This document shows, one piece after another, positions 1-5,082 of a stretch of DNA of 5,535 nt (its first letter is position 1; every line of letters begins with the position of its first letter). The position numbers were made by a program, and so were the translations under genes. The stretch is taken from positions 1 through 5,535 of the forward strand of contig QMOC01000210.1 in assembly GCA_003648085.1 (NCBI GenBank). The letters run 5' to 3'. The DNA is from Chloroflexota bacterium (GTDB lineage: Bacteria > Chloroflexota > Anaerolineae > B4-G1). The notes beneath the pieces are model-generated. The model did not search any database. It was not told the DNA's origin and saw only the letters and a program-made list of their open reading frames with translations.

Positions 1-496
1 CTTCCGGCCCGTCCACGATCGCTATCTCGTGTACTGGTCGTTCCCAGTGAGCGTGGCCCTGTCGAACCAGGCGCAGTTGGTAATCGGGATACCAGCCTCC
101 CCCCAGGGTGAGGCGACCGAAGATGTAGTTATGGCGGGGCACCCACCAGGCTACCTCCTCGCGGTCTCCCGCTGTCACTGCCTGCACCTCCGCCGCCAAC
201 TCCGGTGTGGCCCGCTCGTCGGCATCTACGAAGAAAACCCAGTCCGCCTCTACTCGCTCCAGGGCGGCGTTGCGCTGCTGAGCGTAGTTCTCGAAGGGAT
301 GCTGGATCACCTCCGCACCGATCTGCCGGGCCAGTTCCACCGTTCTATCGGTGCTGAAACAGTCGAAAACCACGCGCCGGTCTGCCCAGGCCAGGCTCGC
401 CAGGCAGTCCTCGATGTTGTGTTCCTCGTTCAGGGTGAGGATGACGGCGGCAAGAGTTGGCCGATTTGCCGATCTGCCGATTCGCTGATTGGTCAT
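1..496 (-). CDS. Family 2 glycosyltransferase, 3' end beyond the window
   Basis: The frame opens at ATG 496 and stays open to the left edge, giving 165 residues of a longer protein. It looks like the GT-A family 2 enzymes of the WaaE/KdtX-like type, which transfer a sugar from a nucleotide donor to a cell-surface glycan or lipid-linked acceptor on the cytoplasmic side. The visible motifs are AAVILTLNEE near residues 16-25, FDCFSTDRTVE near 44-54, a DAD metal-binding motif at 91-93 in FFVDADE, GGWYPDYQLRL near 133-143 and WERPVHE near 151-157. The ATG overlaps the stop of the upstream glycosyltransferase as ATGA. There is no good Shine-Dalgarno site, so translational coupling is likely. Residues 3-11 (NQRIGRSAN) are encoded by an 8-bp repeat and lie before the conserved fold. 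Donor and acceptor cannot be read from the sequence. Confidence 0.9.
   Translation of the reverse strand, partial: MTNQRIGRSANRPTLAAVILTLNEEHNIEDCLASLAWADRRVVFDCFSTDRTVELARQIGAEVIQHPFENYAQQRNAALERVEADWVFFVDADERATPELAAEVQAVTAGDREEVAWWVPRHNYIFGRLTLGGGWYPDYQLRLVRQGHAHWERPVHEIAIVDGPE
461..492 (-). repeat. Short copy of the 8-bp repeat at the N-terminus of the second glycosyltransferase
   Basis: On the plus strand the units run GATTTGCC, GATCTGCC, GATTCGCT, then a partial GATT, at 463-490. These are the same octamer variants as in the long array at 1171-1290. The repeat lies just inside the start codon of the downstream glycosyltransferase and encodes NQRIGRSAN, read in the same register as the array in the upstream gene. 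Confidence 0.8.
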
Positions 497-1554
497 AGAG
501 TCAACACGGTCTGACAGGCTTCCAGGCGGGCGGCCAGTTCGTCGGCGTTGATCCTGCCCCGGCGATAGGCCGCGTGGGCCTGGCGCATCTGCCAGCGCAT
601 CCCCATCCGCACTAGTGCGTGGGCCAGGCGACGCTTCCACGGTGGGTAATGTTTGTCGTAGAGGCGCAGGCGGCTGCGCCACAGCGCGACGAAGGAGGCG
701 ACGCGCACCTGCCCGCTGCTCCTCCCGGCGTGATGCACCACCTGGGCGGTCGGCACGCAGTAGGCCCGCCAGCCGGCCTTGCGCATGCGCCAGCACCAGT
801 CAATCTCCTCACAGTACATCCAGAAGCCCTCGTCCAACAGTCCCACGTCCACGATGGCCTCCATCCGCACCATCATCGCCGCGCCCAGGGGATGGTCTAT
901 CGGAAAGGGGGCCTCTCCTTCGTAGAGGCGGCTAGGATAGCGACCATTGAGCGGGGTGTCGTAAAGCCGGGGAGGCAGAGGGAGGAACTCGAACAGCAAT
1001 TGTACCAGGCCGGGGAAGCGGAAGGCGCTCTGCTGGAGGGAGCCGTCGGCGTAGAGGAGTTTCGCCCCGGCGACGGCGGCCTGCGGCGTGCGCTCCATAA
1101 AATCCAGCAGTGCCGCCGTCGCCCCTGGCTGTACCTCCGTATCGGGATTCAACAGCCAGACGTACTTTGGGATTCGCCCGTTCGCTGATTCGCTGATTCG
1201 CTGATTCGCTGATTCGCTGATTCGCTGATTCGCTGATTTGCCGATTCGCTGATTCGCTGATTTGCCGATTTGCCGATTCGCCGATTCGCCGATTTCACGC
1301 AGCGCAAGGTTATTGCCTCCGGCGAAACCCAGGTTCTCCCGGCTGGCGATGAGGTGAACAGTGGGGAATGCCTCCGCTACCATCTCCGGCGTGCCGTCGG
1401 TGGAAGCATTGTCCACCACCCAGACCTCGGCCTTCAGCCCCGACCGGTTCAAGTCGGCGAAGAGGGAGCGCAGGCAGGCGGCCAGCAGGTCGCGCACGTT
1501 CCAACTGACAATGATGACAGCCAAGTTGAGACTGGTATCGCTCACAACGCTCAA
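493..1554 (-). CDS. Family 2 glycosyltransferase (rhamnosyltransferase-like) with an octapeptide repeat insert
   Basis: This is a 353-residue GT-A enzyme of the COG1216/WbbL-like kind, probably cytoplasmic or membrane-associated and building a surface polysaccharide. The motifs in order are LAVIIVSWN at residues 11-19, VVDNASTDGT at 46-55, ENLGFAGGNN at 73-82, LLNPDTEV at 134-141 with the DxD-like NPD, DEGFWMYCEEIDWCWRMRKA at 241-260, and VVHHAGRSSGQ at 272-282. Residues about 88-128 are an insert of SANQRI-type octapeptides encoded by an 8-bp microsatellite. It lies between the GGNN helix and the strand leading to NPD, where relatives normally have only a few residues. The start is uncertain: TTG at 1554 is the first candidate, GTG at 1545 is an alternative, neither has a strong ribosome site, and no ATG lies nearby. 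The stop overlaps the next glycosyltransferase by 4 bp. Fold assignment is firm; the sugar transferred is unknown. Confidence 0.92.
   Translation of the reverse strand: MSVVSDTSLNLAVIIVSWNVRDLLAACLRSLFADLNRSGLKAEVWVVDNASTDGTPEMVAEAFPTVHLIASRENLGFAGGNNLALREIGESANRQIGKSANQRIGKSANQRISESANQRISESANGRIPKYVWLLNPDTEVQPGATAALLDFMERTPQAAVAGAKLLYADGSLQQSAFRFPGLVQLLFEFLPLPPRLYDTPLNGRYPSRLYEGEAPFPIDHPLGAAMMVRMEAIVDVGLLDEGFWMYCEEIDWCWRMRKAGWRAYCVPTAQVVHHAGRSSGQVRVASFVALWRSRLRLYDKHYPPWKRRLAHALVRMGMRWQMRQAHAAYRRGRINADELAARLEACQTVLTL
1171..1290 (-). repeat. 8-bp tandem repeat array (consensus GATTYGCY on the plus strand)
   Basis: Fifteen consecutive 8-bp units fill 120 bp. The thirteen at 1187-1290 all fit GATTYGCY, the two at 1171-1186 are imperfect, and six identical GATTCGCT units stand at 1187-1234. 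Three units make 24 bp, so the coding strand reads an eight-residue cycle (SESANQRI, SANQRIGK and variants) that passes through all three frames without a stop. The opposite strand meets TGA within each cycle. The array lies wholly inside the first glycosyltransferase. Confidence 0.97.
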
Positions 1555-1596: not shown

Positions 1597-1764
1597 CTAG
1601 GTGAGTGACTACTCAGACGACCTCAGATGAGCCATTGAAGCACATCCTTTGGGACGCAGACGAACGCCGACAAACGCTGATGTCTGAATTTGATCTGCGA
1701 GAGTCCGCGTTAATCGGCGTCCGATCTCGAATCTGGCGGGGCGGCTGAGTAGTCACTTAGGTGA
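1597..1764. mobile_element. MITE-like palindromic element with terminal inverted repeats and flanking direct repeats
   Basis: AGTGACTACTCAG at 1604-1616 is a perfect inverted match to CTGAGTAGTCACT at 1745-1757. The 7-bp sequence TAGGTGA flanks both ends (1598-1604 and 1758-1764) and extends to CTAGGTGA/TTAGGTGA with one mismatch, as a target duplication would. Nested inside is an imperfect 30-bp inverted repeat. No transposase is encoded in the roughly 152 bp between the direct repeats, so it would have to be a non-autonomous element. One end abuts the phnE stop codon. The repeats are seen directly; mobility is inferred. Confidence 0.6.
1652..1722. repeat. Inner imperfect inverted repeat built from 10-bp units
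   Basis: The arms at 1652-1681 and 1693-1722 match at 22 of 30 positions when one is inverted, around an 11-nt loop. Each arm is itself three 10-bp units: GGACGCAGAC, GAACGCCGAC, AAACGCTGAT on the left, and on the inverted right arm GGACGCCGAT, TAACGCGGAC, TCTCGCAGAT. This resembles the ATCTGCG-type dispersed repeats seen in several bacterial phyla. It could fold in RNA and act as a weak bidirectional terminator, but no T-run follows either arm. Confidence 0.75.
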
Positions 1765-3142
1765 TTTTCTCCCGCGCCTTGGCGCTGGCATAGTCCATGA
1801 TGGCTACCACAATGGCGATAGCCCACACCGCCGCGCCTGCTTCCTCATACATCAACAAACGAATCCACTGCTGCAACAGGTAACCGATGCCGCCACCACC
1901 CACGAAACCAATGATGGTACTCATACGCACGTTGATGTCCCAGCGGTAGATGGTGAAAGCCAGATAGGGTGGTACGATCTGCGGGATGACGGCGTAGACG
2001 ATAGTCTGCAAACGATTAGCGCCGGTGGCGGTGATGGCTTCGATGGGGCCAGGATCAATAGATTCGACCGCCTCGGAGTAAAGTTTGCCCAGCGCGGCGA
2101 TGGAATGCACGGCCAGCGCCAGCACGCCGGCGAAGGGCCCCAATCCTACCCAGACCACGAAGATAATAGCCATAATCAAGGGCTCGATAGAGCGCAGCGT
2201 ATTGAGGATGGTGCGCACAACGTAATAAACCGCCATGCTGATGGGGTTGCCGCCCATCAGATTGCGAGCCGCGAGGAAGCTTATCGGGATGGCGATGATG
2301 ATGGCTATGGTGGTGGCCATCAGGGCCAGGAAAACAGTCTCCACCATCTTCTCCACCACCAGGAAAAAGGTCTCGCTGAGGTGCAGAGGGCCTGTTTCGC
2401 GCCGCATTCGTGCCTGGACGCGATATAACTGAGGTCCCTTGTCCTTGGCCTCGGCGAACGGCTCCTGCACGATGACGGTGGTGGGCGGGATCCTCCCCTC
2501 TTCGTCGGTTTCGAACGTCAGGTAATCGCCCTTATATCGCACTCGAAACTCCATCTCACCGGCGAGATTCGACCACCATATATAACCTCGCGAGTTGGGC
2601 CAGAAGTTGCCGCCTTCGATGGTGAACGTATCACCCGGATCACCGCAGGTCTTATCCACGAGGACGAGGTAGGGCTCGCTCTCAAGGGGGCTCCCCTTTG
2701 CAGGTGGGGAATCAGAACAGGGCGATTCAAACTGAACCTCGCCTACCAGTTCTTCGATGTCACGCTCGAAAACAGCGGGCTGAAAAAGGTCGGAGACCAG
2801 GGGCTTGACGTCCGCTACGTCGGTCAGGAGGCGCCGAAGATTGATCTCGGTGACCCCCCAGCCGATGACGTACAGGACGAGGGCTATGGCAAGAAAGGGC
2901 AAGATAGACGAAAGTCGTCTTCCCTGTGCCAGATTGCAGGCGTCCCACACGTTCCATAGCCAGGCTACCGCGATGCCGGTGTAGAGCAGACTGTTCCCTC
3001 GCCAGCGCACCAGGATCGCGGTGACGGCTATGGCGATGAAGAACGCCGCCCCGCGCGAGGGAGACCCGGCGTACACCTGCCCCAGGCCGGGGACAATCAG
3101 AGATAGGACTGAACTGAGAACAGGCGACTTTTTGCGCTGCAT
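1757..3142 (-). CDS. phnE: Phosphonate-type ABC transporter permease PhnE with N-terminal cap and inserted Ig-like domain
   Basis: This is the inner-membrane channel subunit of the importer, 461 residues against roughly 260-290 for typical PhnE. Residues 1-75 form a multi-helix cap containing LIVPGLGQVYAGSPSRG (15-31) and VAWLWNVWDA (59-68), resembling small TM2/DUF5683-like membrane domains. A further helix spans about 79-97. Residues 101-125 resemble the usual PhnE linker. Residues about 155-262 look like an extracytoplasmic Ig or IPT/TIG-like beta domain, with GDPGDTFTIEGGNFWPNS at 167-184 and ETDEEGRIP at 211-219. The permease core follows from about 264, starting VETVFLALMATTIAIIIA and including FLAARN and the EAA-type ATPase-contact loop EAITATGANRLQTIVYAVIP at 368-387. 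The ATG start has AAGGGGGAG placed 5 nt upstream. It lies 15 bp after phnC and ends at the edge of a palindromic element. Confidence 0.92.
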   Translation of the reverse strand: MQRKKSPVLSSVLSLIVPGLGQVYAGSPSRGAAFFIAIAVTAILVRWRGNSLLYTGIAVAWLWNVWDACNLAQGRRLSSILPFLAIALVLYVIGWGVTEINLRRLLTDVADVKPLVSDLFQPAVFERDIEELVGEVQFESPCSDSPPAKGSPLESEPYLVLVDKTCGDPGDTFTIEGGNFWPNSRGYIWWSNLAGEMEFRVRYKGDYLTFETDEEGRIPPTTVIVQEPFAEAKDKGPQLYRVQARMRRETGPLHLSETFFLVVEKMVETVFLALMATTIAIIIAIPISFLAARNLMGGNPISMAVYYVVRTILNTLRSIEPLIMAIIFVVWVGLGPFAGVLALAVHSIAALGKLYSEAVESIDPGPIEAITATGANRLQTIVYAVIPQIVPPYLAFTIYRWDINVRMSTIIGFVGGGGIGYLLQQWIRLLMYEEAGAAVWAIAIVVAIMDYASAKAREKIT

Positions 3143-3147
3143 GTTGT

Positions 3148-3156
3148 CTCCCCCTT
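3148..3156 (-). promoter_or_regulatory. Ribosome binding site of phnE
   Basis: Read on the minus strand, AAGGGGGAG lies 5 nt before the phnE ATG, inside the 15-bp gap that follows the phnC stop. It supports the chosen start and therefore the reality of the unusual N-terminal extension. Confidence 0.75.
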
Positions 3157-3157
3157 C

Positions 3158-3916
3158 TCACGCGACTGTGATGCGCTCGGCTTCCTCGCCGTAGATTTCT
3201 TTGAAGCGCCGGTCGGTAATCTCGTCGGGAAGCCCCTGGAACACCACCCGCCCGTCTTTCAATCCCACCACGTGCGAGGCATAACGGCGCACCAGATCCA
3301 GGAAGTGTAGGCTACAGATGACCGTTATCCCATCTTCCCGGTTGAGTTGTTCCAGGTATCTCAGGATGGAGTGAGCCAGCACCGGGTCCAGGCTGGCCAC
3401 CGGTTCGTCGGCGAGCATCAAGCGCGGTTCCTGCATCAGAGCACGAGCGATGCCCACTCGTTGCCGTTGCCCGCCGCTTAACTCATCGGCCCGCTTGTGG
3501 GCCAGATCGGCAATGCCCACTCGTTCCAGGTTGCGTAAAGCCCTATCCACTTCCTCTCTAGGAAAATAGTGGAGAAGGCTCAGCCAGGGATTGACGTAGC
3601 CCAGCCGGCCAGAGAGGACGTTGATCAGGACGGAGGTTCGCTCCACCAGGTTAAACTCCTGGAAGATCATACCGATGTGACGGCGAATCTGCCGCAATTC
3701 CTCTCCTGATGAGGCGGTAATATCCGTCCCATCCCAGATGATCCGGCCCTTTGTGGGCTCGATGAGGCGGTTAATGCACCTGAGCAGGGTGGATTTGCCC
3801 GCCCCGCTGAGGCCCAGGATCACCAGGAACTCGCCATCTGGCACCTCGAAACTCACATCGTCCAGGGCAACGGTGCCGTCCCCGTAAATCTTGGTCAGAT
3901 GCTCGATTTGCAGCAA
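3158..3916 (-). CDS. phnC: Phosphonate-type ABC transporter ATPase PhnC
   Basis: This is the cytoplasmic ATPase that powers import through PhnE, at 252 residues, the normal length. It shows Walker [10 protein letters not shown] at 35-43, the Q-loop IFQEFNLV with Q86, the signature LSGGQ at 146-150, Walker B LMLADEP at 166-172, the D-loop SLD at 175-177 and the H-loop residue H204 in CSLHFLD. The stretch [19 protein letters not shown] at 88-106 is characteristic of PhnC rather than of general importer ATPases. The likely start is TTG at 3916, preceded by a very good Shine-Dalgarno stretch; CTG at 3913 is possible but unlikely. It follows phnD after a gap carrying a hairpin and precedes phnE by 15 bp. 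The assignment to the phosphonate/phosphite/phosphate transporter family is firm; the exact substrate is not. Confidence 0.96.
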
Positions 3917-3919
3917 GGG

Positions 3920-3930
3920 CCTCCTCCCTC
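3920..3930 (-). promoter_or_regulatory. Ribosome binding site of phnC, next to a TTG start
   Basis: Read on the minus strand, GAGGGAGGAGG ends 3 nt before the TTG at 3916. The GGAGG core is somewhat close, but the overlapping GAGGGAGG gives better spacing. There is no nearby in-frame ATG, so this site supports the non-ATG start. Confidence 0.7.
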
Positions 3931-3933
3931 TAG

Positions 3934-3973
3934 GGGTAGAGAAGGGGGGGAAAGCGAATCCCCTTCTCTACCC
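3934..3973 (-). promoter_or_regulatory. Intercistronic hairpin between phnD and phnC
   Basis: A perfect 14-bp inverted repeat (GGGTAGAGAAGGGG at 3934-3947 and its complement at 3960-3973) encloses a 12-nt loop. It lies 29 nt after the phnD stop and just upstream of the phnC ribosome site. On the minus strand the sequence after the stem is purine-rich, not a T-run, so it is a poor intrinsic terminator. A role in protecting or processing the upstream phnD message, giving more binding protein than ATPase, is plausible by analogy with other importer operons. Partial termination is the alternative. Confidence 0.85.
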
Positions 3974-4002
3974 TGATCTGCGCTACACGTAGCGTTCCCG
4001 AT

Positions 4003-4908
4003 CTACTTGGCCAGTTCCTCGACGTCAACACCGGAGGCATCGAGGACTGCTCGGAAGGGATCGTAGAAAGAGTCATCCTTCTCGATGACCCCGGCCCACC
4101 CGTAGGCCTTCCCCATAGCCTCTACCCCCTCGTCGGTCTCCATGATCTCCAGGAAAGCCTTGACGATTTTTTCCCTCATCTCAGGCGGGAAGTCCTTGAT
4201 GAACTGGAGCCCGTCGTTGGGGATCTCCGGCGATTCGGCGATGACTATCGTCTTCTCCTTCACGTCCGGATAATTATCCTCGATCTTGTCCCGGGCATCA
4301 ATGTAGGTCGCGCCAGCGTCACAATCCCCTTGGTAGACCGCCAGGGCAACGCCATCGTGGGAGCCGACCTCTATCTGCTGGGCCAGGTCGGTGTCTGGAT
4401 CCAGTCCCGCCGCCTTAAGCATCACCCGGGGGATGATATATCCGGAGGTGGAAGCCGCGTCCACCCAGCACATGGTCTTGCCCTTCAGATCCTCCAGAGT
4501 GGTGATGCCCGTGTCCGCTCCGGCAATGATCTGGCCTCTATAATAAGGGCTTCCGTAGCGGACGGAGACCAGGGCGCAGTCCACGCCGCACTTCTCGTGG
4601 GCTAGGATGTAGGCGAAGGTGGCCAGGGTGCCCATATGCGCTTTACCGGTGCACATAGCCTCGATGACCGCAGAGTAACTGGTCGCCACGTTGCCCTTGA
4701 TGACATACCCCGTCTTCTCCGACAGGAGAGAGGCTATCATATCTGCGCTGGCAATGATGTCCGGCGTGTCACCAGATGGCACGAAGGAGAGGATGATTGG
4801 ATTTTCCTCTGTGCCCAGTTCCGGCTTCTTCGGAGCGCAGGAAGCCAGCAGGCTCGCCGTTAACAGACCCACGACCAGTCCCAGCACCAGCATACGCTTT
4901 GCGTTCAT
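4003..4908 (-). CDS. phnD: Phosphonate-type ABC transporter substrate-binding lipoprotein PhnD
   Basis: This is a 301-residue binding protein that would deliver substrate to PhnE from outside the membrane. A positively charged start and hydrophobic stretch lead to the lipobox LLASC with C24, so it should be a lipid-anchored protein. The phosphonate-binding fold shows ATSYSAVIEAMCTGKAHMGT at 75-94, ITTLEDLKGK at 135-144, WVDAASTSGYIIPRVMLKAA at 148-167 (the STSG at 153-156 is the usual oxyanion-binding segment) and GSHDGVALAVYQGDCDAGAT at 182-201. The frame is open further to ATG 5028, but ATG 4908 is chosen because AGGAGG stands 7 nt before it and it places the signal peptide at the N-terminus. 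Several cysteines beyond the lipobox are present, including a CGVDC pair at 107-111. phosphonate, phosphite and phosphate are all possible ligands. Confidence 0.95.
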   Translation of the reverse strand: MNAKRMLVLGLVVGLLTASLLASCAPKKPELGTEENPIILSFVPSGDTPDIIASADMIASLLSEKTGYVIKGNVATSYSAVIEAMCTGKAHMGTLATFAYILAHEKCGVDCALVSVRYGSPYYRGQIIAGADTGITTLEDLKGKTMCWVDAASTSGYIIPRVMLKAAGLDPDTDLAQQIEVGSHDGVALAVYQGDCDAGATYIDARDKIEDNYPDVKEKTIVIAESPEIPNDGLQFIKDFPPEMREKIVKAFLEIMETDEGVEAMGKAYGWAGVIEKDDSFYDPFRAVLDASGVDVEELAK

Positions 4909-4988
4909 TTTATTTCCTCCTGTTTCGAGACTTGAAATGCCAAATTGCCTAACCGTACTCCCATCTTTAGTGATATATCCGCAATCAT
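4905..4988 (-). other. Possible 27-residue leader ORF overlapping the phnD start
   Basis: ATG at 4988 opens a 27-codon frame starting MIADISLKMGVRL and ending in TGA, which overlaps the phnD ATG as ATGA. AAAGGGGGTGATGAT around the start closely matches the anti-Shine-Dalgarno complement, although the G-run is only 2 nt from the ATG, which is short. The strong phnD ribosome site lies within this small frame. The peptide has no recognisable family and the frame may be chance. Confidence 0.25.
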
Positions 4989-5082
4989 CACCCCCTTTCA
5001 CTGTGTGCCCTAACCCGAGGGCTAGCATATCTCAATTTCCTCCAAATGACTCAGACCGTATGCCGTTGTCCCCGCAAACACC
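4909..5082 (-). promoter_or_regulatory. 174-bp leader region upstream of phnD
   Basis: The gap after the beta-sandwich gene should hold the phnD promoter if phnD is the first gene of its operon. I see no convincing -35/-10 pair; the best -10-like strings are TATATC near 4972-4977 and TATGCT near 5024-5029, each with a poor -35. Two GGAGGAAAT stretches occur on the minus strand, one before ATG 5028 (10-nt spacing, frame continuous with phnD) and one before the preferred ATG 4908. A near-repeat, CGGGTTAGGGCA and CGGTTAGGCA, occurs about 60 bp apart. A small 5-bp hairpin at 5007-5022 has no T-run. No Pho-box-like repeat was found. Confidence 0.4.
4916..4921 (-). promoter_or_regulatory. Ribosome binding site that fixes the phnD start
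   Basis: Read on the minus strand, AGGAGG is followed by a 7-nt A/T spacer (AAATAAA) and then ATG at 4908. This is the strongest translation start in the window and decides between the 301- and 341-residue forms of PhnD. Confidence 0.85.

Follow-up and report, generated by a model that had tools for sequence, protein, structure and literature searches.

A dispersed 8-bp tandem repeat lengthens a predicted surface loop before the NPD motif of a family-2 glycosyltransferase in an uncultured environmental bacterium of the Anaerolineae (Chloroflexota), known from a MAG. The array is probably a tolerated product of slippage that selection has kept in frame, and no dedicated switch. Since the same repeat is found in a related bacterium within the coding frames of such basic enzymes as prolyl-tRNA synthetase, a tolerated expansion is likely, rather than an on/off device built for the purpose.

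The window, i.e., the whole stretch of DNA analysed, makes up contig C210 (5535 bp) in full, one of 559 contigs in an assembly of 3.05 Mb that is 83% complete. Among the matches listed, the nearest named protein relatives of its glycosyltransferase are from Chloroflexota and Anaerolineae MAGs. The gene occupies positions 493 to 1554 of the minus strand as a stop-free ORF of 353 aa, with matches to PF00535 (E 1.4e-17) and PF13641 (E 8.4e-09). Its start codon is uncertain, being either TTG at 1554 (353 aa) or GTG at 1545 (350 aa), and the 350-aa homolog P0001 points to the latter. As judged from the sequence and the ORFs, its stop codon (TGA, 495-493) forms an ATGA overlap (493 to 496, minus strand) with the ATG (496-494) of the next glycosyltransferase gene. 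This downstream gene, also of family 2 (PF00535, E 3.5e-14), lies at 2 to 496 on the minus strand and is cut by the contig end. An early stop in the first gene would probably disturb translational coupling to the second as well.

The 8-bp array spans positions 1173 to 1292 on the minus strand and comprises a worn unit (1173-1180) and then 14 exact TTYGCYGA units (1181-1292). Seven identical TTCGCTGA units in a row (1181 to 1236, minus strand) make up the stretch likely to be most open to slippage. TRF assigned to the array a period of 8, 14.2 copies, 93% matches, and a score of 172. In the window's genome, a three-unit pattern was matched 15 times, on three contigs, and the reversed control 0 times; therefore, the array is no chance product. 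The first-pass annotation had placed 15 octamers at 1171-1290, and such an array is indeed present: in that phase, GATTYGCY describes 14 of the units, and the unit at 1179-1186 is worn. Its six identical units in a row were likewise recovered as six GATTCGCT units, which become seven in the phase TTYGCYGA. In the coding direction, the array reads as octapeptides of the (SANQRISE)n type, approximately 40 aa in all. It is coding and in frame at the present copy number, as had been stated, lying within the stop-free 353-codon frame of the minus strand. The statement that the unit is stop-free in all three coding-strand frames is correct; however, it is a single fact and not three, because all three frames give the same cyclic octapeptide. 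The expected consequences of a change in copy number were borne out in silico. One additional unit leads to a stop at codon 137 and the loss of one unit to a stop at codon 204, so that a one- or two-unit change would remove the second half of the protein; changes of three units (+3 or -3) preserve the frame.

The same octamer family forms a further, short array of approximately 3.9 units at 460 to 490 (minus strand), as located from the sequence, the ORFs, and TRF. It encodes the residues just past the ATG of the downstream glycosyltransferase (MTNQRIGRSANR...). Repeat-like peptides, such as TQYAIRNTHHAS, also open the N-termini of four sister-lineage glycosyltransferases (P0135, P0146, P0245, and P0270), and in the relative G041, a glycosyltransferase frame (L288) has an array at its start. 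Short repeats therefore seem to accumulate at gene starts as well, 460-490 of the window being one example.

The first conserved motif past the loop in the alignment is NPD (residues 136-138; 1141 to 1149, minus strand), and N136, P137, and D138 were invariant in 58 aligned sequences. The AlphaFold2 model of the glycosyltransferase had a mean pLDDT of 89.6, with residues 108-125 below 50. These residues belong to the array-coded stretch (approximately 88-125) and sit between a helix (76-103) and a strand (131-135) that leads to NPD. The low pLDDT between helix and strand suggests that the array fills a predicted disordered loop. This pre-NPD loop comprises 44 aa in the window protein, compared with 5-12 aa in many relatives. 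Foldseek returned GalNAc transferases, WrtF, AvpGT, GlfT2, and 6p61 among the top 50 matches to the model, which we take together as a GT-A-like fold; a PDB sequence search gave a single weak match, 6p61. The PF00535 match and the glycosyltransferase-like fold of the model point to membership in GT2. With the rhamnosyltransferase-like proteins of that family (PF00535/PF13641), the window protein shares the domain matches, the NPD motif, and a model resembling solved glycosyltransferases. These relatives carry JGI names such as 'N-acetylglucosaminyl-diphospho-decaprenol L-rhamnosyltransferase'. Glycosyl transfer by the window enzyme is a predicted activity.

The same loop was then compared among homologs. 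In the best 120 homologs listed, apart from P0022, P0031, and P0059, which were left out of this reading, loop peptides such as ISNLQSP, QFAIRNS, QHATRNT, HASRIT, NVKRQTS, and SANQRISE read as different repeats. At the DNA level, 120 loci were collected, i.e., 90 best-match places (the window's own among them) and 30 from an N-half search. Paired N-half and C-half profiles were obtained for 118 of them, and L040 and L103, which gave no pair, were excluded. They yielded 107 distinct loops of 15-183 bp (window's included), and all 107 were in frame without a stop. When the 42 loops of at least 48 bp were tested, with p-values calculated per loop and uncorrected for the 42 tests, 14 (the window's included) were periodic (p <= 0.01 against 300 shuffles). 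The period was 7 in 12 of the 14 and 8 in the other two, with many different units. All 14 periodic loops were in frame, compared with one in three expected without selection. Since the DNA-level loci had been chosen as best matches, the N-half alone was also searched against 396 genomes of the class. Matches were found in 46 genomes (own included), and open frames of at least 248 aa were present in 46 of 46; such in-frame counts from assemblies are biased to the ON state if intact copies score best or are the most frequent form. The occurrence of different 7- and 8-bp repeats in one loop, with the frame intact in 107 of 107, thus suggests that short tandem repeats of non-triplet units arise preferentially in this loop, a hot spot where the frame is preserved.

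The octamer is not confined to glycosyltransferases. In the window's genome, arrays of at least three exact units were found on three contigs, each within a long open frame: in the window, in a YfhO-like membrane protein (with a sub-threshold Pfam match), and in a xanthine-dehydrogenase-like protein (L011), where the array is in frame within the MoCoBD_2 domain. The YfhO-like ORF (L009, 1460-2261) holds three arrays, of 8-bp ATCGGCGA, 7-bp ATAAGCG, and 8-bp GCAGGAGA units, in one open frame. Elsewhere in the same genome, an octamer array (L006, 112-158) lies just upstream of another family-2 glycosyltransferase domain match, in a stop-bearing orientation. Arrays of at least four units were present in 21 of 297 genomes (own included), and the reversed control pattern in none. 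Domains were scanned in 20 open frames with arrays, taken from two loci of the own genome and from one or two loci per relative. Four frames clearly had domains on both sides of the array or across it, namely, L011, an AroQ/aminotransferase frame (L058), L065, which we presume to be HemN/HemW-like from its Radical_SAM and HemN_C matches, and an aminotransferase (L066). Seven of the 20 were without a Pfam match, and in the remaining frames, a domain lay to one side of the array or the placement was ambiguous. In the array-rich genome of the relative G231, an array lies in a MutS2-like open frame (L067) upstream of MutS_V, and all domain matches in this frame are downstream of the array.

The relative G041 alone had 30 arrays of at least four exact units. 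Eleven of these, in nine open frames, were flanked on both sides by Pfam domains in one frame. We use ProS, CarA, AroA, and similar short names as labels for the Pfam and PDB matches concerned. Flanked arrays were found in AroA, a P-type ATPase, a polyketide-type protein, PurD, ProS, an FAD oxidoreductase, CarA (two arrays), and CarB. Two further flanked arrays bridge domains of different enzymes, i.e., AroQ/aminotransferase (L058) and PurD/PurM (L266); these look as if the repeat had fused neighbouring genes. Five more arrays lie in long frames of PMT- or TMEM260-like membrane proteins. As for the other 14, seven were scanned and were without domains on both sides, and seven lie in unscanned frames of 44-233 aa. 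Compared with PDB structures, the arrays coincide with approximately 45 extra residues in ProS (5znj), 49 in AroA (3rmt), and 58 at the second array of CarA (1cs0), and with 11 extra residues in HisC (L066, genome G219; 8bj4). The octapeptide of the window is also found in unrelated enzymes.

Loss of mismatch repair was considered as a general cause of the arrays and was rejected. MutS_I (PF01624) was found in 27 of 30 genomes (all but G007, G216, and G219) and PF01119 in 29 of 30 (all but G038); the window's genome has both.

We propose that slippage would lengthen and shorten arrays at a permissive loop. Since the enzyme would be needed, out-of-frame copies would be lost to selection, and in-frame copies would persist as disordered inserts. 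Loops that tolerate any hydrophilic insert would in this way collect arrays. The octamer family may have reached many genes either by the spread of a seed copy or by local birth from a shared sequence bias. By analogy, the window array would thus be part of a lineage-wide habit that resembles the in-frame coding repeats of Rickettsia, but with tandem octamers. A wider version is that 7- and 8-bp repeat families serve as a genome-wide generator of protein loops in Anaerolineae, making both disordered inserts and ON/OFF switches; we put this forward as a tentative idea that is rather doubtful at present. If it is true, arrays would settle in loops of proteins from glycosyltransferases to prolyl-tRNA synthetase and grow there in frame-keeping steps, and dispensable enzymes, such as the window glycosyltransferase, would also keep standing ON/OFF alleles. 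One mutational process would then yield disordered inserts as well as switches.

Two kinds of known repeats come closest. Rickettsia palindromic elements (RPEs) are described, in the portion of the source available, as in-frame inserts in metabolic genes (PMC10969869). RPEs (PMC10969869) and the octamer are alike in being dispersed repeats that lie in frame in many unrelated genes, metabolic ones included, and add a protein insert. For the octamer, this is seen in 11 of the 30 arrays of G041. RPEs are palindromic, approximately 150 bp long, and fall into ten families (PMC10969869), whereas the insert in the present case consists of head-to-tail tandem units of 8 bp (or 7 bp), and its length varies by units. 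The window array is not a palindromic element of approximately 150 bp. Heptamer arrays form the other kind: the available portions of the sources describe TAACTGA of Beggiatoaceae and cyanobacteria, GGGNATC of Xanthomonas and Nostoc, and the (GATAGRA)n family of Chloroflexus aurantiacus, a member of the same phylum as the window's (PMC4679880, PMC4692102, PMC6749651). Like the octamer, they are dispersed arrays of short non-triplet units; however, TAACTGA and GGGNATC are described there as mainly intergenic, and GGGNATC as under-represented in genes, whereas the octamer arrays lie mid-gene and in frame, also in enzymes of central metabolism. The 7-bp STRR/LSSR class has a 7-bp unit, dispersed and mainly intergenic; the window unit is 8 bp and intragenic. 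PMC4692102 refers to work reporting that prokaryotic coding regions suppress simple repeats in their middle parts. By analogy, the window case appears to work like RPEs and looks like heptamer arrays, and it fits neither definition. As regards octanucleotide or Chloroflexota coding repeats, this case was undescribed among the matches listed from the open-licence literature, which is weak evidence of absence.

In host-adapted pathogens, some glycosyltransferase genes are phase-variable through SSRs. The first-pass annotation had suggested a possible switch of this kind. In its fuller form, slippage by one or two units would toggle the glycosyltransferase and, by coupling, the next one, and so vary a surface glycan; we consider this reading unlikely. 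There are points in its favour. As in SSR phase-variable glycosyltransferases (PMC11868660), the window gene has a non-triplet repeat in its ORF, and a unit change leads to frame loss. The array is a non-triplet tandem repeat within the reading frame, slippage could plausibly act on its run of seven pure units, and a one-unit change produces an early stop in silico, at codon 137 (+1) or 204 (-1). Furthermore, the target is a glycosyltransferase with an ATGA overlap to a second one. The window gene differs from the pathogen genes in that no OFF allele was found, in the mid-gene loop position, and in belonging to an uncultured environmental bacterium. Moreover, unlike the repeats of the pathogen genes, the octamer is also found in metabolic and translation enzymes. 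Contingency repeats are concentrated in surface or contingency genes; the carriers here include ProS, CarA, CarB, PurD, AroA, HisC, and a HemN/HemW-like protein, although membrane PMT/TMEM260-like proteins carry the octamer as well. Enzymes such as ProS, CarA, CarB, PurD, and AroA are costly to lose and are poor candidates for on/off switching. The array thus has the sequence properties of a phase-variable locus and lacks the corresponding choice of target genes.

The little material on unit number within the species likewise shows no OFF allele. P0001, the only near-identical homolog listed (98%), stands for a cluster of nine members and is the only other allele of this species compared; it has an array equal in length to that of the window, and its array peptide differs in one residue. 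The second-best match to the whole glycosyltransferase, among the matches listed, is 76% identical. When the N-half with the array was searched with length limits of 68-215 aa, which admit out-of-frame products, no truncated product of the window's species was found among the best 120 of 326 matches, in which the highest identity was 82%. In reference genomes, the gene was intact, in 107 of 107 loops and in 46 of 46 frames. A dedicated surface-glycan switch is therefore not supported: P0001 has the same length, the frame was preserved in all 107 loops, and in related genomes the same octamer is in frame in enzymes of metabolism and translation. Short versions of the window's unit are present in the same loop of P0032 and P0081, and the window loop exceeds theirs by 32 aa, i.e., 96 bp or 12 units.

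The first-pass annotation had also asked for unit numbers in related genomes, and the answer was divided: P0001 was unchanged and none of the 107 reference loops was shifted, but a sister lineage showed shifts that depended on the source. Several truncated homologs from long contigs end just past the loop, with the NPD region looking frame-shifted, and by codon logic their tails (APISSSF and RSRPPSEPR) appear to be out-of-frame readings of the PDLVLLLNP region. Among the best 120 matches listed, 36 proteins had an N-half at least 88% like that of P0135, and seven of them were loop-shifted, apparently in both alternative frames (P0254, 352 aa, was counted as full length). The N-halves of loop-shifted and full-length forms were up to 98.6% identical over 70 residues. 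By source, the shift was found in 6 of 21 'ena' and 1 of 15 'jgi' proteins (Fisher p 0.20); when four shifted proteins from the truncation search were added, which also count in favour of a switch, the 'ena' figure became 10 of 25 (Fisher p 0.03). The long 'ena' contigs are presumably long-read assemblies. Since 5 of the 15 loop-intact 'ena' proteins also end early further down, the sister-lineage truncations, most of which are from 'ena', may plausibly stem from indel errors in long-read assemblies. Nevertheless, the single 'jgi' case (P0270) is on a short contig and the shifts are concentrated at the loop, so that real OFF alleles are possible in the sister lineage. A search of named genomes for close kin of the truncated proteins gave at best 75% identity over residues 1-72 (80 loci kept of 477).

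It is quite improbable that the octapeptide loop was selected for a job of its own, e.g., as a flexible tether or a partner-binding arm, with the repeat being only the route by which it was built. The loop does adjoin the NPD motif, is long in a number of relatives, and has a hydrophilic composition (S, A, N, Q, R, and E). However, at the corresponding position of homologs, unrelated units encode unrelated peptides, the loop is only 5-12 residues long in many of them, and the same peptide is present in unrelated enzymes. That the unit number or the array itself arose by misassembly is hardly credible: assembly tends to collapse 8-bp arrays and the MAG is fragmented into 559 contigs, but the exact array (112 bp) is shorter than a common short read, the frame is intact across it, and the separate, 98%-identical P0001 has an equal length and the same array peptide but for one residue.

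Here, non-triplet repeats lie mid-gene and in frame in enzymes that the cell can hardly lose. Repeats with a non-triplet unit are usually interpreted as switches. The window case cautions annotators that phase variation does not follow from the mere presence of an 8-bp array in a glycosyltransferase, and that truncated metagenome proteins may reflect indel errors at such arrays. If upheld, the favoured reading of tolerated, frame-selected slippage would offer a natural, countable experiment on the gain of disordered loops and on how strongly the frame is guarded against slippage, and would also show when a repeat turns into a switch.

As for the rest of the window, a plasmid origin was considered and was without a match in PLSDB. 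Genes of a phosphonate-type ABC transporter lie at 1757-5028 (minus strand), encoding a permease (PF00528, residues 285-449 of 461), an ATPase (PF00005), and a substrate-binding protein (PF12974). Just upstream of the glycosyltransferase, at 1604-1757, is a dispersed, MITE-like element of approximately 150 bp with 19-bp inverted ends that are 89% complementary. A 176-bp query around it had 38 matches in the window's genome, self included, and the best other copy was 97% identical.
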